49,887 nt of DNA from Sulfurihydrogenibium sp. (GTDB lineage: Bacteria > Aquificota > Aquificia > Aquificales > Hydrogenothermaceae): positions 1 through 49,887 of the forward strand of contig NZ_JAPYVU010000006.1 of the NCBI RefSeq assembly GCF_028276765.1, in the 5' to 3' direction. A program made the translations under genes and the position numbers. Every line of letters begins with the position of its first letter. Position 1 is the stretch's first letter. The notes under the pieces were generated by a model, which worked only from the letters and a program-made list of their open reading frames with translations, had not been told where the DNA came from and searched no databases. Shown in pieces: positions 4,204 to 35,500 of the stretch.

Positions 4204-4455
4204 TTAGATTTTAGATATTTTTTTTGGTATAGAAATTTTTATATGAAGATAATTAGAATCTTTATACACATTTACTTTATAATTTAAATTTTTTCTTTTT
4301 CTTGACACGTAAGAATTCTTTTTCTTTTTAGAAATTGGAATGGAAATTTCCTGCTTATATATAGGAATTTCTATAACATTTTCATTTTTGATTGTCTCTT
4401 TTGGTTGATTGATAAGATTAAGAACAATAGGAATTAAGATTATCTTTTCTATCAT
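4204..4455 (-). CDS. Small basic protein with hydrophobic N-terminus, unknown function
   Basis: An 83-residue unrecognised protein. Residues 1-16 are hydrophobic (MIEKIILIPIVLNLIN) and could anchor it or act as a weak export signal. The rest is rich in Lys and Ile, with a Lys/Ser/Arg patch near 43-56 and a beta-like tail (YKVNVYKDSNYLHIKISIPK). Its start overlaps the stop of the secreted Ig-like gene (ATGA, 4452-4455), so the two are translationally coupled. Near its end is a run of eight A's on the coding strand (T8 at 4218-4225). A shift there would extend the protein to a stop at 4152-4154, with an acidic tail [12 protein letters not shown]. It may be a partner of the upstream secreted protein; that is inference from coupling. 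Confidence 0.55.
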   Translation of the reverse strand: MIEKIILIPIVLNLINQPKETIKNENVIEIPIYKQEISIPISKKKKNSYVSRKRKNLNYKVNVYKDSNYLHIKISIPKKISKI

Positions 4456-5867
4456 TTTTCCATAACCTTAACTTCAACAGTATTTTTTGAATCCTTCAGC
4501 AAAGAAGCTTCTGCTGTGTAACCATCTTTCAAGGATATATTTAAAATTATGTTGTGGTCTTTATCTTCAACGAAGTTTAGCTTTCCTACATTTTCTTTTT
4601 CTATCAGAATATCTCTTTCATAATTCCTTACTTCATAATCTAAATTTCTCTTTGAAAAGTAAACTTTGTATGTATAATTACCTTCTTTTGCAGAAATTAA
4701 GCTTATTTTGTTAATTATTCCAAGCTCTAATAAAAATTTTAATTTTACAGTCGTGGCTTTCTTTTCTTTTTCCTCTGGTATTTGCTCAGACTTCTTTTCA
4801 GATCGTAATTCTTGTTCCTTTTTAGGTTGCTCTACTATTTTTTTCTCTTCCTTTTGAGCTTTTTTTTCTACATCAATACTTGTATTCAATCCAAGAATTA
4901 CAGGCTCTATATTGATTGTTTCACTTTTAGTATAAATAGCTTGAATTTGGGCTACGCCTTCAACAAACGCTTCTTTTGGAATTATATCAGGAATTATTCT
5001 TCCAGAACCATTAACCTTTAGTTTTATATCCGCACCGATTTTATCGTATACTTTTATTAATCTATCTTGAGCATCATAAACTTTTATTTCTAGAGTAAAT
5101 GGTTTTCCAGCTTCAGTTTCTGATGGAGTAATTACCTTAATTTTTCCTATAGTTTGTATCTCAGGCTTTATAGTTTTTGACGCTAAAATGTTTTTATTAG
5201 ATTTATCCTGAACAACAATATTAAAATCTTCAACTACAAAAGGTAATATATCAAATTTGTACACATTTCCATTAAAATCATTTATATTTACTTCCTTAGT
5301 GCCTCCATTAGCGTTAATAAGGAATGTTTGGTTAATATGCGATTTTTCCAATACCGGATTTCCTTCTCTATCAAAAAAGCTTATTTTTATTTCATAAGGA
5401 TAACCAGGTAAATAACTATCCTTAGATTCTATTACCGCTATTTCTGCTTTATTGTTTATTACTCTAAAATTCATAGATGATGTTAAGGCTTCAAGTGGTA
5501 AAACTTTAAGAATTAGCGGTTTTTCATCCAAAAAAAATGCTAAGCTATAAAAACCAGTTTTTTTTCCTTTAACTGTAATAACAATTTCTCCGTTTTTTAT
5601 GTCCCCTGGATAAATCTCAGATTTACTAATTTCAAGACCGTTTGATACTACTTTTATCTTTGATGCAAGACCAAAATTGTTAGACGGGTTTCCGAAAGCA
5701 TCTGTAAATTTTAGGTTTATATTGTAGGCTTCGCCGGCCACTAATATATTGTTATACTGAACTTCTATGTATGATATTTCGCCAGGTTTAATACTTACTT
5801 GCGCAAAGGAGAAATTAATTAAAAATAAAATAAATAAAAAGAAGGTTCTTATTGATTTAAGATTCAT
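4452..5867 (-). CDS. Secreted Ig-like repeat protein with AMIN-like C-terminus (paralogue 2)
   Basis: 471 residues, a full-length paralogue of the protein at 284-1684. A signal peptide (about 1-22, ending FSFAQ) is followed by three beta-rich repeats. The third contains LIKVYDKIGADIKLKVNGSG and IPDII, almost the same as its paralogue. Then come a Glu/Lys/Gln linker (about 330-368) and an AMIN-like C-terminal domain (about 372-471). A strong ribosome-binding site (GGAGG) precedes the ATG. It follows flhB by 23 bases, so it belongs to the flagellar transcription unit, and its stop overlaps the next small gene. A periplasmic or surface role linked to the flagellum or envelope is plausible but unproven. 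Confidence 0.7.
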   Translation of the reverse strand: MNLKSIRTFFLFILFLINFSFAQVSIKPGEISYIEVQYNNILVAGEAYNINLKFTDAFGNPSNNFGLASKIKVVSNGLEISKSEIYPGDIKNGEIVITVKGKKTGFYSLAFFLDEKPLILKVLPLEALTSSMNFRVINNKAEIAVIESKDSYLPGYPYEIKISFFDREGNPVLEKSHINQTFLINANGGTKEVNINDFNGNVYKFDILPFVVEDFNIVVQDKSNKNILASKTIKPEIQTIGKIKVITPSETEAGKPFTLEIKVYDAQDRLIKVYDKIGADIKLKVNGSGRIIPDIIPKEAFVEGVAQIQAIYTKSETINIEPVILGLNTSIDVEKKAQKEEKKIVEQPKKEQELRSEKKSEQIPEEKEKKATTVKLKFLLELGIINKISLISAKEGNYTYKVYFSKRNLDYEVRNYERDILIEKENVGKLNFVEDKDHNIILNISLKDGYTAEASLLKDSKNTVEVKVMEK

Positions 5868-5890: not shown

Positions 5891-6955
5891 TTATCTATCA
5901 TTATTATACCACTTTTTAGTTTTATAAATCTCCGCAAATATTTTTGCCACTGCCTCATAGAGATTTTCTGGAATATAATCTCCAATTTCACAACTACTGT
6001 ATAATGTTCTTGCTAATGGCGGATCTTCCACTATTTTAACGCCATGTTCTTTTGCTACTTCTTTAATCTTTTGTGCTATTAAATCTTGTCCTTTTGCTAT
6101 CACTTTTGGTGCATGCATTTTTCCTCTTTCGTACTTTAATGCAACAGCATAGTGTTCTGGGTTTGTGATCACAACGTCTGCTTTTGGAACTTCTGCAATC
6201 ATCCTTCTTAATGCAAGCTGCCTCATTCTTTTTCTAATCTCTCTCTTGACTAACGGGTTCCCTTCGTAGGATTTTCTTTCTTCTTTAACTTCATCTTTTG
6301 TCATTTTAAGGTTTTCTTCGTATTCATATCTCCTATAAAGAAAATCGGCGATGGCTATTGGTACAGATAAAAAAGCAAACGACATTACAAGGATAATAAT
6401 CGTTTTACTCAAAACATAAATTTGGTTGTTAATAGAGCCTGTCATGTAAACTAAAAAGTCATTTAATAGATACTTTACAAGGAAATAAGATAAAAACAAT
6501 GCTGCAGTTAGTTTGGCAAGATTTTTAATTAGCTCAAATAAAACAGTCAAAGAGAATAGTCTTTTTATCCCAGAAATAACATTTAATTTATCAAGCTTTG
6601 GAGTAAGAGGTTTTAGCGTAAATAAAAATCCAAACTGCATAACATTTGATGCAATCCCGACTATAAAAAGAATAAGAATTACAGGCAGTATCAAGATTGC
6701 TAATATTTTAAGTGTAAACCAAATAAACATACTCCCGTTTTCTGGAATTAGATATAATGGATTTGAAAACGTATATTTAAAGTATCCAAGAAGATATTTG
6801 TATGCAAAAGGTAAATAAAATATGAAGACAATAAAAATGACAAATAATGATGCAGAAATAGATACATCCATACTTTTGAGAACTTGTCCTTCTTCTCTGG
6901 CTTTCTGCTTCCTTTTCGGGGTTGCTTTTTCCGTTTTACGTGGGTCTTTAGCCAT
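5891..6955 (-). CDS. flhB: Flagellar export switch protein FlhB
   Basis: Inner-membrane part of the flagellar type III export gate. It controls the change from rod/hook to filament substrates. At 354 residues it has normal length. The family N-terminus (DPRKTEKATPKRKQKAREEG) is followed by four membrane segments between about 30 and 205, then the cytoplasmic domain. The autocleavage site reads NPEH at 265-268 instead of the usual NPTH. The scissile Asn-Pro and the His are kept, and the downstream HYAVALKYERGKMHAPKVIAKG is canonical. It lies 3 bases after fliR in the usual fliR-flhB order. Confidence 0.96.
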   Translation of the reverse strand: MAKDPRKTEKATPKRKQKAREEGQVLKSMDVSISASLFVIFIVFIFYLPFAYKYLLGYFKYTFSNPLYLIPENGSMFIWFTLKILAILILPVILILFIVGIASNVMQFGFLFTLKPLTPKLDKLNVISGIKRLFSLTVLFELIKNLAKLTAALFLSYFLVKYLLNDFLVYMTGSINNQIYVLSKTIIILVMSFAFLSVPIAIADFLYRRYEYEENLKMTKDEVKEERKSYEGNPLVKREIRKRMRQLALRRMIAEVPKADVVITNPEHYAVALKYERGKMHAPKVIAKGQDLIAQKIKEVAKEHGVKIVEDPPLARTLYSSCEIGDYIPENLYEAVAKIFAEIYKTKKWYNNDR

Positions 6956-13387: not shown

Positions 13388-14024
13388 CTTTTACAATCTC
13401 TATCTTTTCCCTAAATTTATTTTCTATTTTTCCATTATCAAACTCAATAATAAAATCATTTCCTTTTAAATTTTCGTCTATTTCTAAAGATACACTAGAT
13501 AGAAATTTTTGCAACAATTCTAAATTTTGGTCTTTACTGATTTTAATTTTTAATACTTTAAATTCCCTTAGCTCTTCTAATATCTCATTTATTTTTTCAG
13601 CAACTTCCTTAGGGTCTTTTTCGTGAATGTACAGAAACTCTAAGATTTCTGCTATACTATCAGAGATTATTTCCGATATTTTTGCTAAATATATTTGATA
13701 ATGCTGTTTCAAGGCGTTTTGTATTTTCTCAATAGTATCTTCAGCTTGTTTAATTTCGGCGTTATATTTGTCGTTAAAGCTTGCTTCTATTTCTTTTATT
13801 TTTTGTTCCAACGCATTTTTATACTTTTCTTTTAAGGACTTTATAGCATCTTCAAAGCCTTTTTTATAAGCATTCTTCTTCTCTACTTCAATTTGTTTCA
13901 ATAATTGATTAATTTGATTTTTCAAAGCCTCAATTTCTTTCTCTAAATTATTGCCATTTTCTTTTTCTTCTAAATTTTCAGAAATATTTTTAAGCTGAGT
14001 AAAATCTGTTAAATTCAGCTTCAT
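13347..14024 (-). CDS. fliH: FliH-like regulator of the export ATPase
   Basis: 225 residues, Glu/Lys-rich, with a long coiled coil (about 15-105, for example KEIEALKNQINQLLKQIEVE and YKKGFEDAIKSLKEKYKNAL). The C-terminal alpha/beta domain resembles FliH/V-ATPase subunit E ('LKIKISKDQNLELLQ', 'IIEFDNGKIENKFREKIE'). FliH binds FliI and ties it to the C-ring. Sequence identity in this family is low. Position between fliF and fliI and overlaps at both ends (13347-13387 and 14021-14024) support the call. No fliG lies between fliF and fliH; it is at 31230. Confidence 0.88.
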   Translation of the reverse strand: MKLNLTDFTQLKNISENLEEKENGNNLEKEIEALKNQINQLLKQIEVEKKNAYKKGFEDAIKSLKEKYKNALEQKIKEIEASFNDKYNAEIKQAEDTIEKIQNALKQHYQIYLAKISEIISDSIAEILEFLYIHEKDPKEVAEKINEILEELREFKVLKIKISKDQNLELLQKFLSSVSLEIDENLKGNDFIIEFDNGKIENKFREKIEIVKDEIKREIKKLSEI

Positions 14025-15631
14025 TTTTTAGTATCTTCTTTAATCCATTTAGTTATGATATTTGCTATCATTTGAGGATTTTCTTCAGCTATTTCCAATA
14101 TTTTTAGATATTCAGGTAATTTTTCTATTTCAGACACTAAACCTTTTTCTTCTTCATATTTTTTTGCTAATGCTTCAGCAGCAACCCCGGCTAATTGTGT
14201 TGAAGGAACAGTGGTAGTAGTAACAATCTCTTCTTTTTTCTGTTTTTTCTTGATAAAAATGAATGCTAATAAGCCTAGTATAAGCAAAAGCAGTATTCCT
14301 GCAATTATATACATTATCAAGCTTTGTTGTTTAGGAGAGGCTTCTTCTTGCATAGAGACAGCCTCAAACGGAACGCTGATTACGGTAACTTGATCTCCTC
14401 TGTTTGGGTCAAATCCTATAGCACTTTTGATTAAATTTTCATAGGATTGCAATTCTTGCTGACTTCTTGGCTCAAATTGTTTTATTATATTGCCATCCTT
14501 ATCTTTAATTTCTTTATACTTTCCATCAATCATAACACCAACGCTTACTTTTTTAATAGTAAACAGTGGCTTTTGTGTTTCTATCATTGACTTAGAAACA
14601 TCGTAATTTGTTGTTATATCACTCTTCTCTTTTCTCTTTCCTCCACCGCCCATTATAGGCGTATTCATCACAGGGGGAACGTTTGTTGGTGTACCCGGCG
14701 GTGCGTTTATTGTTTGAGATTCTTCCGTTTCCGATTCTTTAATTTTTCTCTCGCTAACTACTGCTACTTTATCCGGGTCATAGATTTCATCTTTTTGATG
14801 AACTTTTCCCGTTTCAAGCTCTACGCTGGCTTTTACCACTACTCTCTCTGGACCTACTACCTTAGCAAGCATAGACTGAATATCTTTTTCAAGCTGTCTT
14901 TCCAATTTTCTTTTTAAATCAACAGTTTTGTCTCCGGATTCATTGGCAGATTCTTCGTCTATTAAATCAGAAAGAACTCTGCCTCTATTATCTACAACTG
15001 TTACATTTTCTGGTTTTAAGTTTGGTACAGCACGAGAAACTAAAAATACAATAGCTTTAATTTGCTCTTTTGTTAAGTCTTTGTCGGGCCAGAGTTTTAT
15101 AACTACAGATGCTTTTGCTTCGTCTTCTTGTCTGACAAAAATAGAATCCTTAGGAAGAGCTATGTTTACCTTTGCATCCATTACAGCGTCTAACTTTTTG
15201 ATCGTTCTTGTTAATTCTCCTTCTACTGCTCTTATATAATTAACGTTTTCCTGAAATTGTGTTGTTCCAAGCTTTGGCTCTTCAAAAATCTCAAACCCTA
15301 CAACTTTTCCGGAGGGTAATCCCTTTGCAGCCAACTTTAAACGAGCATCATAAACTTTATCTTTTGGAACCATGATTATAGTTCCATTGCCTTCTAATTT
15401 ATAAGGTATGTTTTCTTGCGATAAAGCAGTAAGAATATTACCAGCATCATCCGGAGCTAAACCTGAATATAAAACAGCATAATCTTCTTTATGTAAACTC
15501 TTTGTGAGCAGTATTGCTATAAGAATAATTAAAAATAATCCTACAAGACCACCAATAATGTATTTTTGCTTAGTTTTATCCTGAAATATTTCTTTTATCT
15601 TGTTTATTATTAATTCATTATTTATAGCCAA
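14021..15631 (-). CDS. fliF: Flagellar MS-ring protein FliF
   Basis: 536-residue inner-membrane ring protein that seeds the basal body. It has transmembrane helices near 25-45 and 440-460. Between them are the YscJ/FliF ring-building motifs: 'DYAVLYSGLAPDDAGNIL', 'KVYDARLKLAAKGLPSG' and 'FQENVNYIRAVEGELTRTI', then the second ring-building region with 'SVGVMIDGKY'. A Pro/Gly-rich insert (about 300-322) forms the expected disordered loop. The C-terminal cytoplasmic tail (about 490-536) would bind FliG. The start appears to be a TTG (15629-15631) just after fliE. Confidence 0.96.
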   Translation of the reverse strand: MAINNELIINKIKEIFQDKTKQKYIIGGLVGLFLIILIAILLTKSLHKEDYAVLYSGLAPDDAGNILTALSQENIPYKLEGNGTIIMVPKDKVYDARLKLAAKGLPSGKVVGFEIFEEPKLGTTQFQENVNYIRAVEGELTRTIKKLDAVMDAKVNIALPKDSIFVRQEDEAKASVVIKLWPDKDLTKEQIKAIVFLVSRAVPNLKPENVTVVDNRGRVLSDLIDEESANESGDKTVDLKRKLERQLEKDIQSMLAKVVGPERVVVKASVELETGKVHQKDEIYDPDKVAVVSERKIKESETEESQTINAPPGTPTNVPPVMNTPIMGGGGKRKEKSDITTNYDVSKSMIETQKPLFTIKKVSVGVMIDGKYKEIKDKDGNIIKQFEPRSQQELQSYENLIKSAIGFDPNRGDQVTVISVPFEAVSMQEEASPKQQSLIMYIIAGILLLLILGLLAFIFIKKKQKKEEIVTTTTVPSTQLAGVAAEALAKKYEEEKGLVSEIEKLPEYLKILEIAEENPQMIANIITKWIKEDTKK

Positions 15632-15645
15632 GAGCCTTTACTCCA

Positions 15646-15933
15646 TTAGACTTGCATTCTCATAATTTCTTGATAACTTTCTAAAGCTTTATTTCTGATT
15701 TCTGTTAAAAGTCTAAATGAAATATCAGCTTTTTCTATCTGATACATCGCATCTTGAATGTTTTGGATTTTACCAAGTGCTAAGTCTTGCTCTATATTTT
15801 TAGCATTAATCAAATCATTGTTAACATCTTTTATAAAGTTTTTAAGCAAATCTGAAAAAGATGTTTTACTTTCTTCTTCTTTTTTTTCTACATCTAACTT
15901 TAGTGGTAATCCATCTATTCCTTCAATTCTCAT
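15646..15933 (-). CDS. fliE: Flagellar hook-basal body protein FliE
   Basis: 95-residue protein that joins the MS-ring to the rod and is an early export substrate. The C-terminal half is the conserved FliE region: 'NIQDAMYQIEKADISFRLLTEIRNKALESYQEIMRMQV'. A GGAGG ribosome-binding site lies 5 bases before the ATG. It is the first gene after a class A repeat, with a TATAAT-like hexamer at the repeat junction (15967-15972) facing it. fliF follows 14 bases downstream. Confidence 0.95.
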   Translation of the reverse strand: MRIEGIDGLPLKLDVEKKEEESKTSFSDLLKNFIKDVNNDLINAKNIEQDLALGKIQNIQDAMYQIEKADISFRLLTEIRNKALESYQEIMRMQV

Positions 15934-15966
15934 ACCAGTCCTCCGTTACTTTATTTTTATACTCTA

Positions 15967-15972
15967 ATTATA
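15967..15972 (-). promoter_or_regulatory. Possible -10 box created at a repeat end, upstream of fliE
   Basis: TATAAT on the minus strand, formed by the last bases of the class A repeat (GTA) and the flank. A start site about 7 bases downstream would leave a 25-30 base leader before fliE. No good -35 hexamer lies 16-18 bases upstream, so this is suggestive only. Confidence 0.3.
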
Positions 15973-16134
15973 CGTCGGGTAAGAATTTAAATAAAAATAT
16001 GAGATTCTTCGCTTTGCTCAGAATGACAAAGTGATCATTAACATGCTTTCACTTTCTATGTCATTCTGAGGACTTTAATCCGAAGAATCTCATTTTTAAA
16101 TTCTATAAAAACCGCTAATTTCTCACCCAAGGTA
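15971..16134. repeat. Class A MITE-like repeat between flgC and fliE
   Basis: A nearly complete copy of about 164 bp. Its ends are TACGTCGGGTAAGAATTT and CTAATTTCTCACCCAAGGTA (inverted). The inner arms GAGATTCTTCGCTTTGCTCA...GAATGAC and GTCATTCTGAGGACTTTAAT...CCGAAGAATCTC are also inverted, so either strand could fold into a long imperfect hairpin. A 13-base direct repeat, ATACTCTAATTAT, lies on both sides (15959-15971 and 16143-16155). Confidence 0.75.
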
Positions 16135-16140
16135 TTACTT

Positions 16141-16551
16141 TCATACTCTAATTATTTCCAAGCTTTTTATTAATAAATCTTTATGTGTATTGAATGCCGT
16201 TAAATTTGCTTCATAGGTTCTCATCGCAGTTATCATATCAACCATTTCTCTAATTGGGTCAACGTTTGGAAGTCTAACATAGCCATCTGGTCCGGCATCA
16301 GGATTGTTTGGGTCAAATTTTAATTTAAACGGTGATGGGTCTTCTTGAATATCTTTAACTCTAACTTTATAAACAGGAATTTGAGATTGAGCATCTAAAA
16401 CTGCTTCAAAAACCGGCACCTTTCTTCTATAAGGTTGTCCATTTTCAGTATGGGTAGAATTTACATTTGCAAGGTTGCTTGCAGCTAAATCTATTCTAAC
16501 TCTCTCGGCTTGCATACCGGATACAGATATTTCAAGTCCTTTAAAAAGCAT
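16141..16551 (-). CDS. flgC: Flagellar proximal rod protein FlgC
   Basis: 136-residue rod subunit. The N-terminus 'LEISVSGMQAERVRIDLAAS' followed by NLANVNST and the C-terminus 'DMITAMRTYEANLTAFNTHK' are diagnostic of FlgC, as is the internal 'GYVRLPNVDPIREMVDMI'. It follows flgB by 12 bases. Its stop lies 7 bases from the class A repeat that separates it from fliE, breaking the common flgB-flgC-fliE run. Confidence 0.96.
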   Translation of the reverse strand: MLFKGLEISVSGMQAERVRIDLAASNLANVNSTHTENGQPYRRKVPVFEAVLDAQSQIPVYKVRVKDIQEDPSPFKLKFDPNNPDAGPDGYVRLPNVDPIREMVDMITAMRTYEANLTAFNTHKDLLIKSLEIIRV

Positions 16552-16563
16552 TTTTTACTCCTC

Positions 16564-16932
16564 CTATTTTCCTGATATAGCTAATTTCATCTTTGATAGT
16601 TCTTTTTTCATAACTTCAACAAGAGATTTATACATTATTGAGCTTTCTGCAAGCTTAGCCATTTCTTCTTCGACATTGACTTTATTTTGGTCATATCCTG
16701 TAATGATACCGTTTTGGTAAGGCTTAATTTTTATAAAATTTTTAGTTTCTGGCTGAATATGTCTTTCATCTGTTGTTTTTAAAACTATTTGATTATCCAA
16801 AACTTCTTCAAAGGTTAAATCTACTGGTTTATAAAAAGGAGTATTTGCATTGGCTATGTTTCCCTGGATGACTTTAGTCCTTTCGAAATAGAAAGATGAC
16901 ATAATGTTAATTTTATCCAACTCATCAAACAT
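16564..16932 (-). CDS. flgB: Flagellar proximal rod protein FlgB
   Basis: 122-residue rod subunit adjoining FliE. It shows the family pattern 'RTKVIQGNIANANTPFYKPV' followed by DLTFEEVL near the N-terminus and a C-terminal helix with 'VNVEEEMAKLAESSIMYKSL', as in FlgB. The start touches the stop of the upstream TPR gene (shared base 16932), so expression is coupled to it. flgC follows. Confidence 0.95.
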   Translation of the reverse strand: MFDELDKINIMSSFYFERTKVIQGNIANANTPFYKPVDLTFEEVLDNQIVLKTTDERHIQPETKNFIKIKPYQNGIITGYDQNKVNVEEEMAKLAESSIMYKSLVEVMKKELSKMKLAISGK

Positions 16933-18869
16933 TATTTTCCCACCTCTTGTAATATTTTATAACTTTCGTACATTTCTTTTGCAATAATTGATAGTTCATC
17001 ATTACATCCTGCTAAATAATTATAATACAACTCTATGTTTTCTGTTTTCTTTGTTTTTATTTTAGAGATGATAGACATGCTTGCAAATTTGCAGATATTT
17101 TCTTTCTTTAATTTTTTAAAATCTATTTTATCTAAGATACTTGCAACTTCATTATACCTTTTCATTTTAAATAGATTCTCTATTAGAGAGTTAATTTTGT
17201 TATTAAATATTTCGTTTTTTTCATACATCTCTACAAATTGAGTTTTATTTTTATCAATTAACTCTGTAAGCTTCTCATAATTATTTGTAGAATAATAATA
17301 ATCAAAAGCTATATAAAATGGTAAATTTTCTATATCGCATTTATTTTGAATTGAATTTAGCTCCTCTTTATAGTCTATTTTCATATTAGATTTTGCAACA
17401 GTTGTGAAAATATAGTAATCACAATTTTTATTTTTTACTTTCTCCAAGGTATTTAAGGCATAATTATATTTTTTATCGCTGATAAAGGCTTTGGCAAGGT
17501 CAATATAGTATTTATCCTCCTGATACTTATCGGCCATGAATTTTAGTAAATCGATCTTTTGCTTTAAATCTTTTTCATCAGAGAGACTAGTCAAAATTTT
17601 ATCTAAAACATCTCTATCAAATATATCTTTAAAAAATTTTGGATTTGACAGATATAACATTCTTAATTTATCCGGAGAGAGTTTTAAAAGATATTTTGTC
17701 CATAGATTGGCAATATATTCAGCTTGTTCGTAAGTAAAGTTAGCAGGATAAATTAACGATAGTTCATAAGATAACCTATTAAATAAAAAATCTGTTGGAT
17801 TTTGAAAAACCAAAACTCCAAAATTGCCAAGAGCATATTTGCCAATATAATTGGTTCTGTTTGATATTAAGGTTCTAACTACAAATCTTATTGGGTCTTC
17901 AAGTTGTTTTATAGATTTAATTTTATTCTCTAACTCTGGATACTTTAATCCTAGTGCAAGCATTTTTAGTCTGGCAACTGTATTCTCTTGAGTTTCTGGA
18001 AATCTATTTATTACTATAAGATAATTTTGAAAAGCTTCCATTTTATCATTTTCAATTGATGCAATATCACCAAGTCTCAAATAAGATTTTCTTATTACAT
18101 CATCATTCTTTACATACGAAATGATTTTTCTAAAAATACTTTTCGCAAGATTGTAATTCTTTAATCTGTAAGCAGTTTCGGCTACAGTGTAATAAAACTC
18201 GGGGTTGTCTAATAAATAATCTTCAAAGTTTGCAATTGTGTCTTTAAAGTATTCAAAAGCAGTTTTGTAATCTTTTAGGTAAAAGGCTCTCATTCCCATT
18301 ATAAAAGATAGTTCCTTACTTTCTTTAGATTCTAATGGTGCTAAGTAAATTATATATTTTGTGATATTGTCTATGTTTCCAAGCAATATCGAAGTTCTCA
18401 TTATACCGAGAATGATTTTGTTAGTTAAATTACTACTATCATTTAAAAATAAAGCTATTTTGTAATTGGTAAGAGCTCTTTCATAAAAGCCTAATCTTTC
18501 ATAAACTAAACCTTTGGTATAGTAATAATCTTTATTAGCTTCTCCACCAAATGCTATATACCAATTCAAAAAATATGCTGAATTCCATAAATATTGTTTC
18601 ATTCCGGTCTTTTGACCAATGCTTAGATAAATCTTAGCAGATAGCAACAATGCTTGTCTGTAGTCTTTTGATTTTTTATCTACTGTAGATAAAGCTTTTG
18701 ATAGATTTTCTAATGCACTATAATAAGAACCTACATTATATTCTTTCAAGGCTTTATTTATAAAATCCCTAGGATTTTCCTTTGAGAAGGATTGGAAACA
18801 AAAAAGCAGATTTATCAAAAATGCAACATTAATAATAAACGCATATTTCTTGATAAAAATTTCTTTCAT
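16932..18869 (-). CDS. Exported TPR-rich protein in the flagellar operon, unknown function
   Basis: 645 residues with an N-terminal hydrophobic signal or anchor (about 8-28, ending FQSFSKEN), then helical TPR-like repeats over most of its length. Examples are 'NKALKEYNVGSYYSALENLS', 'GLVYERLGFYERALTNYKIA', 'MRAFYLKDYKTAFEYFKDTI' and 'AFISDKKYNYALNTLEKVKN'. It is locked into the operon: it overlaps both the FliK-like gene (18866-18869) and flgB (16932). A periplasmic TPR scaffold for the motor, comparable in outline to Campylobacter PflA, is a reasonable guess from layout; I see no sequence proof of that. Confidence 0.65.
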   Translation of the reverse strand: MKEIFIKKYAFIINVAFLINLLFCFQSFSKENPRDFINKALKEYNVGSYYSALENLSKALSTVDKKSKDYRQALLLSAKIYLSIGQKTGMKQYLWNSAYFLNWYIAFGGEANKDYYYTKGLVYERLGFYERALTNYKIALFLNDSSNLTNKIILGIMRTSILLGNIDNITKYIIYLAPLESKESKELSFIMGMRAFYLKDYKTAFEYFKDTIANFEDYLLDNPEFYYTVAETAYRLKNYNLAKSIFRKIISYVKNDDVIRKSYLRLGDIASIENDKMEAFQNYLIVINRFPETQENTVARLKMLALGLKYPELENKIKSIKQLEDPIRFVVRTLISNRTNYIGKYALGNFGVLVFQNPTDFLFNRLSYELSLIYPANFTYEQAEYIANLWTKYLLKLSPDKLRMLYLSNPKFFKDIFDRDVLDKILTSLSDEKDLKQKIDLLKFMADKYQEDKYYIDLAKAFISDKKYNYALNTLEKVKNKNCDYYIFTTVAKSNMKIDYKEELNSIQNKCDIENLPFYIAFDYYYSTNNYEKLTELIDKNKTQFVEMYEKNEIFNNKINSLIENLFKMKRYNEVASILDKIDFKKLKKENICKFASMSIISKIKTKKTENIELYYNYLAGCNDELSIIAKEMYESYKILQEVGK

Positions 18870-19966
18870 ACTGCAAGGTTTATCCCGGAAGTATTAGAAT
18901 TATTAGACACTTTATATTCGTATAGTTTTAAAACTTTTTCTTTATCTTTGATTGTTAGGTTATGATGTTTAAATCCATTATCTTTCAATATCTGTTGTAT
19001 TTGAAGAATTGTAGCATCATCTAAAATAACGTCTTTTGTGTTAATAACAAGGTTTAAAGTATTTGATACTAAATTAGCAGATATATTTGTCTGATTGTAT
19101 GAGAATACAAAAGAATTGTTATTTTGATTTTGCCCATTTATACTTTTATTAAAATTGTTATCGTTTTGATTATTTTGATAGTTTGAATTATTATCGTTAG
19201 GGTTGGAAATGTTGATATTTACTGATTGAGGTAGATTATCGTTATAATTTGTAGCGGCCGTATTGTTTCCATCATTATTTTTGTTAGTATAAATATTAAC
19301 TTCATTGGAATTTTGCAAATCTTTCATTGCCAAGCTTTCATTAAAATTATTAACAGATATTTTAATTTCAAGCTCTTTATTTGATTTAAGAATATTAAAC
19401 TCTTTTAACTCCTCAGATTTTTTATCTTCAATTTTTGATGCAAGTTTGTCAAACTCTTCTTTTTTCTTTAGAAGGTTAGAAATGGTATCTTTTTGTAATT
19501 TATCATTTACGTTGCTTGATTTATTTTTATCGTCTAAAGGTGCGCTACTTTTATCTATTATAAGATTGTTCACTTTATTTAATTTTTTTAAAGCAATTTT
19601 TAAATTTTGTAAGTTTTCTTCTTCAATAACATTTAAATTTTCCCTTTTAATACCTTTTTCTAAGCTTTCCTGAGCCAATTTAAAGTCTTTAATTTTATTT
19701 TTTTCACTTTTAACATTCTTTAAATTTTCTGTATTATTAACTGCATTATAACTTAATGCTACATTTAAATTTGATGCTACTTCTAAATCCTTATTGTTAT
19801 TTTCTACATCTCTATCCTTTTTAACTGCTTCTTTTTTATCTACAGATTTAGCAATAATATCATCAAAAATATTTTTTTCTAATTTTTGCTTCTTATTTTT
19901 ATTATTGTTGCTGCCGCCTCTTATTATTCCAAAGCCTTCTATATATGATGACATTAAATTTTCCAT
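18866..19966 (-). CDS. Asn-rich, low-complexity protein, candidate hook-length control (FliK-like)
   Basis: 366 residues without a signal peptide. The first 220 are charged and Lys/Asn-rich. About 225-285 is an extreme Asn-rich tract (for example SNPNDNNSNYQNNQNDNNFN). The last 85 form a more ordered domain ('LNLVINTKDVILDDATILQI', 'KEKVLKLYEYKV'). A long disordered, exported N-terminus plus a compact C-terminal domain is the FliK layout, and no other FliK candidate is in the window. It lies between fliA and the TPR gene, overlapping the latter. I do not see the conserved FliK C-terminal core, so the function is a guess. Confidence 0.4.
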   Translation of the reverse strand: MENLMSSYIEGFGIIRGGSNNNKNKKQKLEKNIFDDIIAKSVDKKEAVKKDRDVENNNKDLEVASNLNVALSYNAVNNTENLKNVKSEKNKIKDFKLAQESLEKGIKRENLNVIEEENLQNLKIALKKLNKVNNLIIDKSSAPLDDKNKSSNVNDKLQKDTISNLLKKKEEFDKLASKIEDKKSEELKEFNILKSNKELEIKISVNNFNESLAMKDLQNSNEVNIYTNKNNDGNNTAATNYNDNLPQSVNINISNPNDNNSNYQNNQNDNNFNKSINGQNQNNNSFVFSYNQTNISANLVSNTLNLVINTKDVILDDATILQIQQILKDNGFKHHNLTIKDKEKVLKLYEYKVSNNSNTSGINLAV

Positions 19967-19970
19967 TTTT

Positions 19971-20612
19971 TTATCCCTCTATATTATCATACACAATTTT
20001 TTTTAATTTTTCCACTGCTCTTGATTTCAATTGTGAAATTCTCCCAAGGCTTATATTCATAATCTCCGATATCTCTTTCGGATCTTTTTCTTCAAAGTAT
20101 AAATATTGAATTATCTTCTTTTCATTATCATCTAAGTATTTATCAATAGCATCTGAGATTTTTTCTAATAATTCTTTTTGCGCATATTCTTCTTCAGGAG
20201 TTTTAGATTTTGATGCAAATAGATCTATAAAGGAAAAATCTTCTCCATCTTCAGAAATAATTTTATCTAAACTTAGCATTATTGCATTTTTAGAAATAGG
20301 AAGTTCATCTCCAAGTTTATCTGCATACTCTATGGTGATTTTATCTTTTTCCGTTTTTGGCATAATATCTTGCTGTCTTAGAAAATCAAGAATTTCTCCT
20401 CTAATTCTGATGTATGCATAGGTTGAAAATTTACCTTTATCTTCATCATAATTTTCTAAAGCTTTTAACAGCCCTACAATACCAGTTTGTACCAAATCAT
20501 CAAATTCTATCTCACAATCCGGCAGTCTATAAAATATTTTTGAAGCAACTTTTTTGACTAGGCCAATATGTTCTTCAACTATTTGCTTTTTTTGTTCTTT
20601 ACTTAAGTTCAC
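19971..20612 (-). CDS. fliA: Flagellar sigma factor sigma-28 (FliA/WhiG family)
   Basis: 213-residue sigma factor for late flagellar genes. Region 2 is clear ('EEHIGLVKKVASKIFYRLPD', 'DDLVQTGIVGLLKALENYDE' and FSTYAYIRIRGEILDFLRQQD), with the FliA-type RIRGxxxDxLR signature. Region 4 carries the helix-turn-helix 'KDPKEISEIMNISLGRISQL'. The start is a GTG (20610-20612) with AGAGGCGG upstream. It is the first gene after a class A repeat and is followed 4 bases later by the Asn-rich gene. No flgM-like anti-sigma gene is visible nearby. Confidence 0.95.
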   Translation of the reverse strand: MNLSKEQKKQIVEEHIGLVKKVASKIFYRLPDCEIEFDDLVQTGIVGLLKALENYDEDKGKFSTYAYIRIRGEILDFLRQQDIMPKTEKDKITIEYADKLGDELPISKNAIMLSLDKIISEDGEDFSFIDLFASKSKTPEEEYAQKELLEKISDAIDKYLDDNEKKIIQYLYFEEKDPKEISEIMNISLGRISQLKSRAVEKLKKIVYDNIEG

Positions 20613-20855: not shown

Positions 20856-21731
20856 TTATTTAATAAAAGAAAACAGTTTTTTAAAGAAGCTTTCTTTATT
20901 TTCTCTTTTAATATCTTCTCCCGTCTCTTTTTTTGCAATTTTAATTAAATTTTTTGTAAAAGAGTCTGTAGAGTCTGTTTTATAACTTTCAGAAATTAAT
21001 GTTCTTGATATAACACTCTTCTTAAGATTTTCAGAAAACGGCAATATCCCTGCAAGATTTAATTCTAAATTTAGAAATCTTTTACAAGAACTTGAAAGTC
21101 TTTCAAAAGTTTCTATTCCTTCTTCTTCACTTTTACACATGTTAATTACTATTTTAAAATTAGAATAGCTATAGATCTTAAAGACAGATTTTATAAGACT
21201 ATAAGCATCTGTAAGGGCTGTAGGTTCAGGTGTTGTTATGATGTATGTCTTATCCGAAGGAAGGATAAAGTTTATCACTTCTTTACCAATTCCTGCGGCT
21301 GTATCTATTATGATGTAGTCATATTCTTCGGATATTTCGTCTAGTCTCTTTATCAAATAGTTTAAATTTATGTTTTCCATATCACTTATGCTGTCTATGC
21401 CGGAAAATCCTGGTATTAAATCAAAATTTTTAACTTTTATTATATTCTCTTTTATATCTTTACCCTCAAAAAATTCTTTTAAAGATTTTATCAATGGAAT
21501 GTTTAATATGACGTGAACGTTGCCAACCCCAATATCAGCATCTATCAAAAGAACTTTTTTATTAAAATGGTTAGCCAGTATATAAGCTAAGTTTATTGAG
21601 AAATTTGTTTTTCCTACTCCGCCTTTACCGCTTGATACACATAAAAATTTTGGATTTCTTTTTGTTTGTATAGCCTCAGGGTTTACTTTACTAACAATCT
21701 CTTTTAACTGTTTTAACTGTTGCTCCATCAT
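20856..21731 (-). CDS. flhG: MinD-like ATPase FlhG (flagellar number regulator)
   Basis: 291-residue P-loop ATPase that limits flagellar number and works with FlhF. The deviant Walker A motif is SSGKGGVGKTNFSINLAY (GKGGVGKT at 35-42). 'VLLIDADIGVGNVHVILNIP' and 'EYDYIIIDTAAGIGKEVINF' are the other MinD/ParA signatures. The N-terminus 'MMEQQLKQLKEIVSKVNPEA' resembles the FlhF-activating segment of FlhG proteins. The start overlaps the flhF stop (21728-21731), and the order flhA-flhF-flhG is canonical. Confidence 0.95.
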   Translation of the reverse strand: MMEQQLKQLKEIVSKVNPEAIQTKRNPKFLCVSSGKGGVGKTNFSINLAYILANHFNKKVLLIDADIGVGNVHVILNIPLIKSLKEFFEGKDIKENIIKVKNFDLIPGFSGIDSISDMENINLNYLIKRLDEISEEYDYIIIDTAAGIGKEVINFILPSDKTYIITTPEPTALTDAYSLIKSVFKIYSYSNFKIVINMCKSEEEGIETFERLSSSCKRFLNLELNLAGILPFSENLKKSVISRTLISESYKTDSTDSFTKNLIKIAKKETGEDIKRENKESFFKKLFSFIK

Positions 21732-22924
21732 TCATTCTCCATAAGCAGGTATGAAGCAAGTCTTTCAGGGGTAATTATCTTCAAGTCTTCGGGAACATTT
21801 TGGCCTGTACTAATGTATGTTAACGGAAGTTTAGTTTTATATGCCAAATTTAATATAGTGCCAGGATAAGCTGTTTCATCTATTTTTGTAAAAAACAAAT
21901 AATCGATGTCGAAGAATTTTTTATATTTTTGAATTAAACTATAACTTTCTTTATTTTTCCAATTACAGCTTACTACCATCATGTACTCTATTTCGTCGAT
22001 CAAACGCAAAGTCTCCTTTATTTCTCCAAGCTTCCAATGGTCATAATGGCTTCTTCCTACAGTATCTATTAGAATAACATCTACAAAATCTAAATCATCC
22101 ACAATTTCCCTTAGTTTTTTAGGGTCGGACAGGATCTGGAAAGGTATTCCAAGTATGTTGCAATAGCTTCTTGCTTGATCTCCCGCTCCTGCTTTAAATG
22201 TATCCGTGGATATAACAGCAACTTTTTTGTTCTCTTCTAAAATAAGCTTTGAGGCTACTTTAAATAGATTTGTTGTCTTCCCAACACCGGTTGGTCCCAA
22301 AAAAGCCACAACTCTCCTTCTGTTAGAATCTTTAAAGATATCTCCTTTAAATATAAAACTTTTTTCAATACCTTCTATAAGAGATTCTCTATATGTAAAG
22401 TGTTTTAAATCTAACTTGTTCGAATCCATTTCTAATCCACAAGCATTTCTTACAATTTCTTTAGCAACATCCAACTCAACATCCTTTTGAATCAGCAAAT
22501 TAATTAAGTCTAAAGCTTTTCCTGTAAATTCTTCTGTGATTTCTTTGTATGTTATATTATTATCGTAATACTCTTCTTTTATGTTTAGTTTTTGATTTAA
22601 ATCATTATGAGCTGTGGTTTTTATAACAGGTTCAACTTTTTCAACAACTTTCTGTCCAATTTTTGCTTTAAATGGGTTATAAGTTTGTACTTCTTTTTCG
22701 TTTTCCTCTTTTAGATTTTCAGATAAAATATCCTCAAAAGAAATTTTATTTTCTATTGGTTCAACTATGAGGATATATTTTGTTTTCTTGAAAAATGGAA
22801 TTTTTGTTTTTTCTTTTATCTCATTTTGATATAGAATTTTAAACTCCTCACCGAAACTTTCTTTTATTTGGTGCATCAATTTGCTTAAATCATAACCTTC
22901 AAAGATTTTTATTTTAGGTTCCAT
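21728..22924 (-). CDS. flhF: SRP-type GTPase FlhF (flagellar placement)
   Basis: 398-residue GTPase that sets the site of flagellar assembly, usually a cell pole. The N-terminal B domain (about 1-130) is poorly conserved. The NG domain holds G1 GPTGVGKTT (210-218), 'DTFKAGAGDQARSYCNILGI' and G3 DTVGRSHYDHWKLGEI, then TKIDE near the C-terminus. The start overlaps flhA by 11 bases, and flhG overlaps its end. This gene pair suggests a defined, probably polar, flagellar pattern. Confidence 0.95.
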   Translation of the reverse strand: MEPKIKIFEGYDLSKLMHQIKESFGEEFKILYQNEIKEKTKIPFFKKTKYILIVEPIENKISFEDILSENLKEENEKEVQTYNPFKAKIGQKVVEKVEPVIKTTAHNDLNQKLNIKEEYYDNNITYKEITEEFTGKALDLINLLIQKDVELDVAKEIVRNACGLEMDSNKLDLKHFTYRESLIEGIEKSFIFKGDIFKDSNRRRVVAFLGPTGVGKTTNLFKVASKLILEENKKVAVISTDTFKAGAGDQARSYCNILGIPFQILSDPKKLREIVDDLDFVDVILIDTVGRSHYDHWKLGEIKETLRLIDEIEYMMVVSCNWKNKESYSLIQKYKKFFDIDYLFFTKIDETAYPGTILNLAYKTKLPLTYISTGQNVPEDLKIITPERLASYLLMENE

Positions 22925-24995
22925 CTACTTCCACAACTCCAATAATATTTAATTTTATTTTACTATCAATCTCTGAATAAGACAAAACTTGCAAGTTAGG
23001 TATATAGTTTTCGATGATTTGCTTGATATATCTTCTTATGTTTGGAGATGTTAATAATATAGGGGTTACACCTTGAATAACAAAGTTTTCTAAATGTTTG
23101 GATATTTCTGTTATCAACTTTTGAACAAAAACAGGATTTAATGATGGCATTTGCCAATCATTCTCTTTAAGTAAATTTATTAAATATTCTTGAGTTTTAT
23201 TTCCAAGTATTAATGCTGTAAGTTGTCCGTTTTTAGCAAACATCGAAGTAATCATTCTGCTTAATGCTGTGCGGACGTATTCAGTTAAGATATCCTGGTC
23301 TTGTGTTTTATTTATATTATCCGCTAATGCTTCTACAATAGTAATGATATCTGTAATAGGAATTCCTTCTTTTAAAAGATTTTGAAGAACTTTATGAAGT
23401 ATATTTAAAGGAACTTGTGATGGAACAATATCCTTTATTATAGGATAACTTTTTGCAATATTATCGATGATTTCTTTAACCTGCATTCTTGTAAGTATTT
23501 CGTAAGAGTATCTTTTAATTATTTCTGATAAATGGGTAACTATTACGGTGGGCACATCTACTACTGTGTATCCGTTTAGCTTTGCCCTGTCTTTGTTAGC
23601 TTCATCTATCCATAAAGCATTTAATCCAAAGGCTGGGTCTTTTGTTGAAACACCTTCCACTTTTTCTCTAATAGAACCTGTATCTAATGCAAGATATTTA
23701 TCCGGTTCTACTTCGTACCTTGCTACTTCTACACCTTTGATTAAAATTCTATATTCATTTGGCTTTAATTCTAAATTATCTTTTATATGTACAGGTGGAA
23801 CTATCAGTCCAAGCTCTTTGCTTAATTGTTTTCTTAAATTTTTTATTCTTTTAATAAGCTCACCTCCTTGTGATTCATCGACTAATTTGATTAATCTGTA
23901 TCCTATCTCAAAAGTTAAAACTTCCGGTGGAGATATATAGCTCTCCGGCTGCTCTTCTTCTAACCGTTTGATAACTTCTTTGGCTTTTTCTTCTTTCTCT
24001 GTTTTTTCTCTCTCCTTTATTGTTAGATACATTATGTATCCTGAAAATCCAAGAATCGCTGAAAGTATTAAGAATGGTAAAGTTGGCATTCCCGGAACGA
24101 TTCCTATAGTAAACACAGCACCTGATGCCATCCATAAGGCCTTTGGAATACTTGTTAGCTGTGTAAAGATTTCTTTACCAAGGTTTGTTTCTGAAGCAGC
24201 ACGGGTAACCATTAAACCTGCAGCTGTTGACGTGATAAGAGCTGGTATCTGGGACACCAATCCATCACCTATTGTTAAAATTGTAAAGTTTTGTAGTGCC
24301 GATTGGAAATCCATTCCTTTTTGAACCATTCCAATTATAATTCCACCAATCATATTTATGAATGTGATGATTATAGCAGCTATAGCATCACCACGAATAA
24401 ACTTAGTTGCACCATCCATCGCTCCATAAAAATCTGCTTCTCTTTGAATTTCTTGACGTCTTCTTTGAGCTTCTTTCTCATCTATAAGACCGCTATTTAA
24501 ATCTGCATCTATACTCATCTGTTTACCCGGCATAGCATCAAGCGTAAACCTTGCAGCCACTTCTGAAATTCTTTCTGTACCTTTTGTGATAACAATAAAG
24601 TTAATGATTACAAGCACTAAAAACACTATAATACCAACTACATAACTACCACCAACAACAAACTGTCCGAAAGACTGTATAACATGCCCTGCTGCATCCG
24701 GTCCTTCGTGACCATGTAGTAAAATTCTTCTTGTTGATGCAACGTTTAAAGACAATCTAAATAGCGTTGCAAGTAAAAGTAGAGAAGGAAAAGAAGACAT
24801 TTTTAAAGGACTATCGATATAAACCGTAGTCATTAAAATTAGCATAGAAAAACTAATGCTCATTGTAAGAAGTATGTCAAGCAAAAACGGTGGAACTGGT
24901 AAAACTAAAGAACCAAGAATTATAAGTATAAAAACAATAATTATCGCATCCGAATTTTGGTTTATTTTGTCAAAAATAGGTAAAACTCTATCCAA
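22914..24995 (-). CDS. flhA: Flagellar export gate protein FlhA
   Basis: 693-residue inner-membrane export gate subunit whose cytoplasmic domains form the nonameric docking ring. The N-terminal half has about eight membrane helices. The conserved cytoplasmic loop (FHIPEP region) reads 'RISEVAARFTLDAMPGKQMS' and 'IDADLNSGLIDEKEAQRRRQ'. The C-terminal half (about 350-693) carries the substrate/chaperone docking domain with 'AFGLNALWIDEANKDRAKLN' and 'VVDVPTVIVTHLSEIIKRYS'. The start is a TTG with GAGGG upstream. It lies between flgJ and flhF. Confidence 0.97.
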   Translation of the reverse strand: MDRVLPIFDKINQNSDAIIIVFILIILGSLVLPVPPFLLDILLTMSISFSMLILMTTVYIDSPLKMSSFPSLLLLATLFRLSLNVASTRRILLHGHEGPDAAGHVIQSFGQFVVGGSYVVGIIVFLVLVIINFIVITKGTERISEVAARFTLDAMPGKQMSIDADLNSGLIDEKEAQRRRQEIQREADFYGAMDGATKFIRGDAIAAIIITFINMIGGIIIGMVQKGMDFQSALQNFTILTIGDGLVSQIPALITSTAAGLMVTRAASETNLGKEIFTQLTSIPKALWMASGAVFTIGIVPGMPTLPFLILSAILGFSGYIMYLTIKEREKTEKEEKAKEVIKRLEEEQPESYISPPEVLTFEIGYRLIKLVDESQGGELIKRIKNLRKQLSKELGLIVPPVHIKDNLELKPNEYRILIKGVEVARYEVEPDKYLALDTGSIREKVEGVSTKDPAFGLNALWIDEANKDRAKLNGYTVVDVPTVIVTHLSEIIKRYSYEILTRMQVKEIIDNIAKSYPIIKDIVPSQVPLNILHKVLQNLLKEGIPITDIITIVEALADNINKTQDQDILTEYVRTALSRMITSMFAKNGQLTALILGNKTQEYLINLLKENDWQMPSLNPVFVQKLITEISKHLENFVIQGVTPILLTSPNIRRYIKQIIENYIPNLQVLSYSEIDSKIKLNIIGVVEVDGT

Positions 24996-32569: not shown

Positions 32570-35500
32570 TCAGTTATCGTGTCTTATTTTAATTTTTTCA
32601 AGCAATTCAAAAAGTATAGCTTCGTAATCTTTTTCGCCAATTTCTACCTTATCCATAAGCTCTTCTAATTTTCTTGTAAACTCTTCTGATAAAAACTCTC
32701 TTACATGATTTAAGCTGTTTAAATACTGATAAACTTTTATACCCATAGAAGTTGGAAATAGCAAACCTTTCTTTTCTATTACATATTTTCTTTCAAGAAG
32801 TTTCGCAATGATTGTTGCATATGTAGATGGTCTTCCGATGCCTCTTTCTTTCATTCTAAATACAAGCTCCCCATGGGTAAATGGAAATGCCTTTGGCATG
32901 GTTTTAAATTGTTTATTATTGCTTATATCAATTATTCCCTCTAAATCTGGATGAAGTTCAGCCGGTAATATTTTATTCCATCCATCTTGAATAATATCTG
33001 TATGTAAAACTTTTTCTAATTCAAATCCAAAGCCTTTTATGATTACATCTTTTGCTTTAAATTTAACAGCTCTCATTTGAGAAGCTATGAAACGTTTAAA
33101 GATAAGGTCATAAAGCTTTATATGGTCAAAGGTTAAGCCTTCGTACTGACCGCTTAAAATCATAGATTTTAACTCTTCTGTTTCCATTGCTCTTGTTGGT
33201 CTTATACATTCATGAGCTCCACCTTCTCCCCAAACTCTCGCCTGGAAATAATCCTTTCCAAATGCTTCTTCTATATACTCTCTTGCTAAAGCTATGCCAA
33301 CATCAGAAACTCTTGTTGAATCTGTTCTATGGTATGTAATATATCCAAGCTCAAATAGGTCTTGTGCTAATTCCATTGTTTTTGGGAGTGAAAATCTGTA
33401 TCTATCGCTTGCATCTTTTAGCATTGTATCTGTTCTGTATGGTGGAAGAGGGTTTTTATCTTCTTCTTTTACTTCCTTTACAATAATTTCAATGTTATTT
33501 AGATTATTAAAGATATTTTCTGCATCTTGCTTGTTTTGATAGTCTATGTCCAATTCAAGTTTTCTACTGTCTTGCTGAAGCGTGATTGTTATTCTGTAAA
33601 TTTTTTGCTTTCTCTCTTTTTCTCTTTCTATAATCCATCCAAGTATAGGTGTTTGAACTCTACCTGCCGAAAGCCAATTTTTACCAAAAGCTTTTTGAAG
33701 TAGCTGAGAGTATTCAAACCCGACCCATCTGTCTGCCACTCTTCTAACTATTTGAGCTTTTACTAAATTTTCATCAAAATCTCTTGGGTTTTTAATTGCG
33801 TTAATGATTGCTTTTTTTGTTACTTCATGAAATTCCATTCTTTGGATATTTTTAACATAAGGTTTTAAAAGTAATTCAACATCCCACCCTATCTTTTCAC
33901 CTTCTGTGTCCGGGTCTGTTGCAACGTATACTTCTAAACTTTCAAAGCTTACAGACCTGATGCTTTCTATGATTTCTTCCTTTCCTTCAATCGTTTCGTA
34001 AACTGGCTCAATATGGTCTTTCACAAAAACTCCGTAATATCCAAGCTCTTTATTAAGGTCAAGAATATGACCTAAGGATGCAGTAATCATTAAGTATCTA
34101 TCATCTATTGATGTCTCTAAGATTTCATGGTCGTTTACTCTTCTTCTTACAGATTTTCCAAAGAAGTTTGCTATGGTTCTTGCTTTGTTTGGAGATTCTA
34201 CTACTATTAAAACTGGCTTTAAGATGCTTTCTACTTTCTCAAACTTAATCTCACCTTTGAGTATCTTTCTTACCTTTTCTCTGTCTGAGTCTATCTCTTT
34301 AAGAATTTTGTCTAACTCGATTGACTTAAAATCTACAAATTCAATGTCATCACTAAACCATTTGACTCTCTTTTGTAGATGATTAAAGGCTTTTTTATCG
34401 TCTATTAAAATTACAGATAATCCTTTCGTGATACCGCCGCTGTACATTCTGGAAGTTCTTCCGCTTGCTTGTAAGTATCCTGTCACATCAGATACGACGA
34501 GTTTATATCCATCTTCATCTTTTCTAAGGGTAACTTCGTTAGATTCTTTTAAAAGATTTATTATCTCTTCTGAGTTTAAAAACTGTCCTACTTTCAATCT
34601 TAGATTGTCTACTTTTTCTTTTAGGTTTGGATTGTTTTGTAAAAATTCTTCCGTTAGATACTGATATTTTTTTAACTGAGTTATCCATTTATCAATTTGG
34701 ATTGCATACTGTGGAAATTTTTTCAAAATGTACGCTCTTATAGAACTAAGCGCCCAAAGTAGATGACTTAGATTTGCTTCAAATTTTAATGATAGTACGA
34801 TTTTTGGAACGCCGTAAAAAATTGTATATCTGATTAAATGAGGAAGGTCTATACCTCTTGCCAATGGGTTTCTGTAGGAAGAGATACCAATCAAAACATC
34901 TATCTTTCCATTTTCGTATTTCTTTAAGATTTCGTCATCAATCTCTTCATAGGTAGCAGCCTTAACTCCTTTTTTTGTTAGATATTCTTTAACTTCTTCA
35001 GCATATTCTTTCTTTTTGTCAGAAGGTATAAATACAAGCCCACCTTTTCCAAGTTTTTTTATAAGCTCTGACAATTCGTGATTTTCTATATCATCATAAG
35101 AATCTACAATGTTTCTCAAGTAAAATGTTGGAGTTCCTACTTCAAAGCCAAGAAGTTCTCTAAAAAGCTTTATTCTGTTTGACTTCGGGTTTGAAGTTGC
35201 CGATGAAACTATCAGCACACCTTTTCTCTTTGCTTCTATCTTTCTAAGCTTTTCTGTAAGCTGGTTTATTTTGTTCCAATCTTCATCTGTCTTATTCTGC
35301 TTTGCTTTTAGTTTGATGACTTCTAACGCAAGGTTTATATCATTTTCATCAAAGCCAAGTAAATAAAGTGCTTTGTCTATGTTTTTCGCGGTTTTTAAGA
35401 AAGAGTCTACATCGTCAACAAACACAAGAGAAAAATCTTTTGGAATCTTGTCATGATTTTTGTATAGAAACATAGAAGTTGTTATCAGTACAGAAAAATC

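Follow-up and report, generated by a model that had tools for sequence, protein, structure and literature searches.

In a 49,887-nucleotide stretch of a 1.75-Mb Sulfurihydrogenibium genome (NCBI RefSeq assembly GCF_028276765.1, contig NZ_JAPYVU010000006.1; hereafter the window, with a GC content of 31%), we find that two genes lying between a fliA-type sigma factor gene and flgB form a pair that is phylum-wide in Aquificota and common to the Nitratiruptor-type Campylobacterota, and our best explanation is that they are an ancient flagellar module. The first, Kx, encodes an asparagine-rich protein of 366 residues (18866..19966, minus strand), and the second encodes a tetratricopeptide repeat (TPR) protein of 645 residues (16932..18869, minus strand). 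We lean towards a joint reading, which we consider somewhat probable, in which Kx is a highly divergent ruler and export switch of the FliK type and the TPR protein is a PflA-like spoke of the motor. This reading starts from the anatomy of the locus, its conservation, the predicted folds, the aligned pairing of cysteines and a flgY-like gene, all of which we observe, and from these we infer the export routes, the disulfides, the partners and the function.

The order of the genes is that given in the preliminary description (fliA, the asparagine-rich gene, the 645-residue TPR gene, flgB), and the list of open reading frames (ORFs), the junctions and the conservation agree with it. The upstream neighbor of Kx is the fliA-type sigma factor gene (19971..20612, minus strand; NCBIfam FliA_WhiG E 8.9e-43, below the curated cut-off, with Pfam Sigma70_r2 and Sigma70_r4 above cut-off), and the TPR gene is followed by flgB, for the proximal rod (16564..16932, minus strand; NCBIfam FlgB E 1.3e-21, above cut-off). 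A 4-base gap separates the sigma factor gene from Kx, Kx overlaps the TPR gene by 4 bases (ATGA), and the TPR gene overlaps flgB by 1 base (TAATG). When the longest ORFs are taken in 28 relatives, Kx and the TPR gene overlap by 14 bases in 16 of them and by 4 bases in 8, the other 4 differing from both. This tight packing of Kx, the TPR gene and flgB, which is maintained across large distances, suggests translational coupling.

A BLAST survey of 61 genomes identified the TPR protein in 28, every one of them among the 37 members of the window's own family; the 24 genomes from two other families of the order gave no match. Kx was identified in 9 of the 61, part of these being chance matches. From the own family, 28 loci were fetched; the TPR gene is directly before flgB in 26 of 26 of them, and in all 25 loci with a contig long enough to include the Kx slot, a Kx-type ORF occupies it. 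Because of this conservation, a chance explanation of the gene pair is ruled out. A profile of the last 105 residues of Kx (A1) recovers nearly all own-family Kx proteins and, in addition, those of family f5 (E 1e-12 to 2e-4), which are encoded about 4 kb before FliF; in all 12 f5 loci inspected the order is fliA-Kx-TPR-flgB-flgC-fliE-fliF-fliH-fliI. All six flgB loci of family f2 (Aquificaceae-like) have a TPR-sized gene before flgB, and a Kx-like ORF fills the slot in 3 of 4 loci of family f3. Our scan of contigs yielded 43 named loci from Sulfurihydrogenibium, Persephonella, Hydrogenothermaceae, Thermovibrio, Desulfurobacteriaceae and, in 15 of the 43, members of Campylobacterota by their titles; 41 have a called Kx and 37 the TPR gene with flgB, the remainder being contig ends or ORF-calling conflicts.

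Both genes also follow the flagellum. Counting genomes at least 90% complete from families f1, f4 and f5, and noting that detection limits differ, we find the TPR protein in 38 of 38 genomes with FliF and Kx in 35 of the same 38, with each absent from both genomes that lack FliF. Among 150 Campylobacterota genomes, 7 match the window-type TPR protein at E < 1e-229, 1 matches weakly and 142 give no match at E <= 1e-6. The flagellar set of Nitratiruptor is described as acquired from Aquificota near Persephonella (PMC9321776); the named Campylobacterota loci are consistent with that transfer, and both Kx and the TPR gene are within the transferred order. The term lineage-specific, used in the preliminary description, does not survive this distribution. 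Neither Kx nor this TPR gene is described in the literature that we searched, which did not include the supplements to PMC11870540 and PMC9321776.

Kx consists of a fast-evolving N-terminal part and a conserved C-terminal domain. The Kx of the window contains 20.2% asparagine and no cysteine, and a charge-hydropathy plot places its N-terminal part on the disordered side, this being the single measure by which disorder was judged. Lengths range from 337 to 836 residues, and among 28 full-length members the N-terminal part is on the disordered side in 27 and the protein is free of cysteine in 23. The share of asparagine in the N-terminal part varies between 2 and 21% among members, which elsewhere are lysine-, serine- or proline-rich, and asparagine-richness is a local composition effect that is not conserved. 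The pattern of the last 85 or so residues is conserved. An AlphaFold2 model of the C-terminal domain from 40 sequences predicts strands at 23-29, 32-39 and 42-49, a helix at 56-68 and strands at 74-79 and 84-88, with a confidence score (pLDDT) of about 90 in the core. This putative T3S4/FliK-like core, at approximately residues 283-349 of the window protein (18920..19120, minus strand), is indicated by AlphaFold2, by hhalign and by a match to the solved structure 5cuk.

The profile-profile comparison with FliK that the preliminary description had proposed for this C-terminus gave a divided answer. Against an alignment of seven FliK proteins (A6; one from E. coli K-12 and six encoded on plasmids), the most diverse Kx set (A9, 40 sequences) aligned by hhalign with a P value of 0.0015 and in the correct register, but with a direct probability of just 17%. 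Smaller sets, one from f1 alone and one from f1 with f5, gave weaker values (0.021 for 24 sequences and 0.041 for 36), and no alignment was obtained with f5 sequences only. Proteins in the Kx slot of families f2 and f3 align to A9 at E 1.7e-4 and to FliK at 0.011, and in a single-genome search with Pfam Flg_hook two of those from f3 reach E 1e-4 and 0.005, one of them scoring 0.051 against all of Pfam. When the Kx domain was aligned to 995 solved chains, the substrate-specificity domain of PscP (5cuk) stood in row 12 with a Z score of 4.9 and a root-mean-square deviation of 2.4 over 60 residues, the lowest deviation among the first 16 rows; the FliK core structure 2rrl was absent among the matches listed.

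The 5cuk score is below the aligner's safe level of Z 8 and unrelated folds rank higher, and a Foldseek search with the domain gave no match at E <= 0.001, with unrelated enzymes listed first. These results would suit a mere low-complexity protein whose C-terminal likeness to FliK comes from common small beta-alpha-beta folds, an explanation that we regard as improbable, given that the register, the genomic slot, the co-occurrence with FliF and the Flg_hook signals of the f3 slot proteins all concur against it. Pfam Flg_hook (PF02120) matched none of 40 Kx C-terminal domains at E <= 1 among the matches listed (25 of 29 families), none of 24 in another search, and not the Kx of the window itself; comparing Kx directly with Pfam and NCBIfam gave nothing useful, and BLAST reached near relatives only. 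Kx is filed here as FliK-like and not as a member of PF02120. A weak Flg_hook match elsewhere in the same genome (G000:C27) was considered as FliK and rejected, being a 140-residue frame among genes that appear, by sequence, to be secretion- or pilus-like.

The genome does hold a second FliK-like gene (G000:C38:14909-16105; 36% identity to the copy in genome G012), which is linked to flhX and to which the literature name would go. At this locus Pfam detects the partner, an FlhB C-terminal protein (Pfam Bac_export_2 E 1.6e-19; NCBIfam flhB_rel E 2.9e-33), and not the Flg_hook-type protein itself. Searching 136 genomes with its own profile (A7) at E <= 0.001 identified the flhX-linked type in 76, and in the loci inspected it lies among housekeeping genes, usually adjoining the FlhB C-terminal protein. 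We take it to be of the B. subtilis ylqG type, and B. subtilis has both types, ylqG-ylqH and a fliK in the operon. Of the near-complete genomes, 48 of the 74 with FliF and 4 of the 14 without it carry the flhX-linked gene, two of these 4 (G051 and G055) having long open frames and a third (G019) a broken copy; the gene is tied to flagella, but loosely, and Kx and the TPR protein follow FliF more closely in the f1, f4 and f5 count. That this gene is unrelated to flagella, suggested by its retention in G019, was dropped, since G019 has only a broken copy and genomes without FliF carry the gene less often. G019 (L265, L266) is near-complete and, besides the broken gene, carries fragmentary flagellar export and motA genes; its flagellum is apparently being lost.

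The flhX-linked gene gives rise to a second alternative, possible though doubtful in our view, namely that it encodes the hook-length protein and that Kx is another secreted protein of the rod or hook stage, for instance one that assists the rod or the export gate and carries a domain related to FliK. Ten of the 136 genomes of the phylum contain a protein over the Pfam Flg_hook cut-off, and those inspected are of the flhX-linked type, whose alignment to FliK by hhalign (E 2.3e-5, 76%) is better than that of Kx and whose partner resembles the C-terminus of FlhB. An flhX-fliK pair is located outside the Nitratiruptor cluster according to PMC9321776, and the flhX-linked gene is probably the "fliK" of that paper. 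In family f2, the position upstream of the TPR-sized gene holds a Kx-like ORF in 3 of 6 loci and tgt in the other 3; f2 flagella with tgt in the slot may lack Kx, and the flhX-linked gene is present in these genomes. These points, together with the low direct probability and the Pfam results above, weigh against Kx as the ruler. On the other side, the flhX-linked gene sits among housekeeping genes, persists in the FliF-less genomes just counted and was not found in G136, a (possibly incomplete) metagenome-assembled Nitratiruptor genome that keeps Kx, its N-terminal part, judged by eye, does not appear disordered in its conserved first segment, and the coexistence of both types in B. subtilis also counts against the alternative.

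As a separate observation, in three Aquificaceae-like genomes (L185, L186 and L191) the start of the TPR-flgB block is overlapped, at the place of Kx, by tgt, which we take from its sequence to encode tRNA-guanine transglycosylase.

The suggestion that the asparagine-rich protein is FliK is carried by conservation of the slot, fold topology, the register-correct profile alignment and the match to PscP; Pfam does not confirm it, and the second Flg_hook-type gene lies elsewhere in the genome. No single line is decisive, but jointly they favor Kx as most likely the hook ruler, a remote FliK. The preliminary description had said that its proposal would fail if a fliK lay elsewhere in the genome and linkage to flgB were lacking in relatives; a Flg_hook-type gene does lie elsewhere, but the linkage is conserved.

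The TPR protein matches Pfam TPR_2 at the cut-off (E 4.1e-6), and its best sequence-profile relatives are YbgF proteins (TIGR02795 E 3.5e-8, below cut-off; 2xev E 2e-7); a sequence search of the PDB with its profile returned generic TPR proteins and other unrelated chains only. Its start resembles a signal peptide (approximately residues 1-29; 18783..18869, minus strand) by inspection and in the model, where a hydrophobic helix at 2-24 is followed by low pLDDT at 25-29, and export is predicted from this start and from the pairing of cysteines. Alignments of 30 and 37 rows contain many invariant positions. Cysteines 483, 511, 593 and 622 occur in 37 of 37 sequences, cysteines 403 and 432 occur together in 34 and are both lost in 3, and cysteines 493 and 500 occur together in 14 and never alone. 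Judged by where the helices lie in the model, the members of these pairs could sit opposite one another at hairpin ends, which argues for a periplasmic, disulfide-stapled protein.

Structure prediction, also proposed in the preliminary description, yielded an all-helical superhelix with a mean pLDDT of 92 (AlphaFold2), but no counterpart of the PflA beta-sandwich. The best of 350,542 chains in Foldseek is 9hmf_K (E 4.3e-8), from a model of the C. jejuni scaffold (PMC12222027); because its 773 residues equal those of a PflA construct spanning 16-788 (PMC11870540), chain K is probably PflA. Several results pull the other way. The superposition on 9hmf_K is loose (TM score 0.31), its margin over eukaryotic TPR proteins is under one log unit, and the best rows from a second aligner are generic TPR proteins such as LGN (Z 20). 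The 645-residue model has no strands and lacks the N-terminal beta-sandwich and the PflB-binding linker described for PflA (PMC12222027, PMC11870540), and homology to native Campylobacterota PflA was not detected by sequence, 142 of 150 genomes being without a match at E <= 1e-6. The sequence of PflA is itself described as poorly conserved, solitary TPR proteins encoded close to flagellar genes have been proposed as PflA-like, and Nitratiruptor has been proposed to have FlgY and PflA without PflB (PMC11870540); the absence of a beta-sandwich from the model fits a motor lacking PflB.

A FlgY-like gene is encoded in the same genome (G000:C31). Its product of 145 residues has a signal-like start, a coiled coil and an MgtE_N domain (E 8.8e-4, below cut-off; NCBIfam collar_FlbB E 6e-4, far below cut-off), and the gene lies beside motA-motB. 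In this region (L261:5845-8180) the order is motA-motB, an ORF for a 137-residue coiled-coil protein (FliJ-like?) and the 145-residue FlgY/MotE-like protein, and it is the same in G004 (L262) and G012 (L264).

The relation to YbgF, and the coupling of the TPR gene to flgB and not to motAB, would also suit a periplasmic assembly or quality-control factor of the BamD/YbgF/PilW type acting on the rod or the P- and L-rings. We hold this to be a minority possibility: the best Foldseek match is a C. jejuni motor scaffold, the genome contains a flgY-like E-ring gene, and the length and invariant pattern of the protein suit a structural part. The PflA-like scaffold first suggested is supported by the structural match and the companion gene, but the beta-sandwich is absent and no relation by sequence to native PflA was detected; the TPR protein is most likely, as a candidate judged from its model, a PflA-like spoke without the PflA beta-sandwich.

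Under the joint reading, translational coupling to flgB would cause Kx and the TPR protein to be produced with the rod. The unfolded, variable-length N-terminal part of Kx would pass through the flagellar type III export apparatus and span the growing hook as a ruler, and its small C-terminal domain would then meet the FlhB switch and halt hook export. The TPR protein would be exported by Sec to the periplasm, be rigidified by paired disulfides and form spokes, arranged radially on an E-ring of FlgY that encircles the MS-ring, positioning FliL and the stators; it would act like PflA, MotC or FlcB, without the PflB-binding module of PflA. More tentatively, Aquificota may have a spoke-only scaffold (FlgY E-ring and disulfide-stapled TPR spoke, no PflB rim) and a FliK missed by Pfam, which moved en bloc into Nitratiruptor-type Campylobacterota and replaced the PflA-PflB motor there, the flhX-linked fliK being a separate paralogue with another job; if true, this would be a natural swap of motor architectures. 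Through our analysis, two genes that a deep-branching phylum has retained acquire names and a role that can be tested. It also raises the question of which of two genes is the hook ruler of Aquificota, and makes Nitratiruptor and its sister genera a natural experiment in which stator scaffolds that have PflB can be set against those that lack it.

The pair is embedded in a larger flagellar cluster. Downstream of flgB is a conserved block of flgC, fliE and fliF (14021..16551, minus strand; fliF by Pfam, flgC and fliE named from sequence), and upstream of the sigma factor gene is a block that we take, from sequence, to be flhG, flhF and flhA (20856..24995, minus strand); the order of both is kept in relatives. 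Elsewhere in the cluster, Pfam identifies fliG, fliM, fliN, rod genes of the FlgE/F/G type, flgA, flgH, flgI and a rod-binding protein, together with flgD, flgE, fliL, fliP, fliQ, fliR and flhB (5891-6955). Two related, secreted-looking proteins with Ig-like N-terminal parts are encoded at 4452-5867 (471 residues), just after flhB, and at 284-1684 (466 residues); the first has 50% identity to the protein in the same place in genome G003, and the second has 32% identity to that G003 protein. They could be a further part of the motor or envelope. Directly upstream of the flagellar cluster, at 32570-36004, is a reverse gyrase gene (zf_Rg, DEAD, Toprim and topoisomerase domains).

Compared with known systems, Kx shares with FliK and T3S4 proteins (E. 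coli FliK and the PscP domain 5cuk) a long N-terminal part of variable length, unfolded and export-competent as predicted from charge and hydropathy, a small C-terminal domain modelled as beta-rich with one helix, and a gene among rod and hook operons. Kx differs from FliK in lacking a Pfam Flg_hook match, in the reduction of the HPEELG-type loop, in a conserved EINVKV-like C-terminal tail, and in its slot, which is between fliA and the TPR gene and not before flgD. The flhX-linked protein likewise has a FliK-type C-terminal domain and occurs in many of the same genomes, but unlike Kx it is encoded outside the flagellar cluster, is paired with an FlhB C-terminal protein and has a conserved N-terminal segment. 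The TPR protein shares with PflA, the motor spoke of Campylobacter, a predicted exported TPR superhelix encoded with flagella and a FlgY-type partner gene in the genome, and is distinguished from it by its conserved, disulfide-like cysteine pairs, by the missing beta-sandwich and PflB-binding linker and by the undetected sequence relation. In pairing a single TPR protein with a candidate E-ring protein of the FlgY/MotE/FlbB kind, an arrangement that has been proposed elsewhere (PMC11870540, PMC13023049), it is, by description, also like MotC/MotK and FlcB, the TPR scaffold partners of MotE and FlbB.

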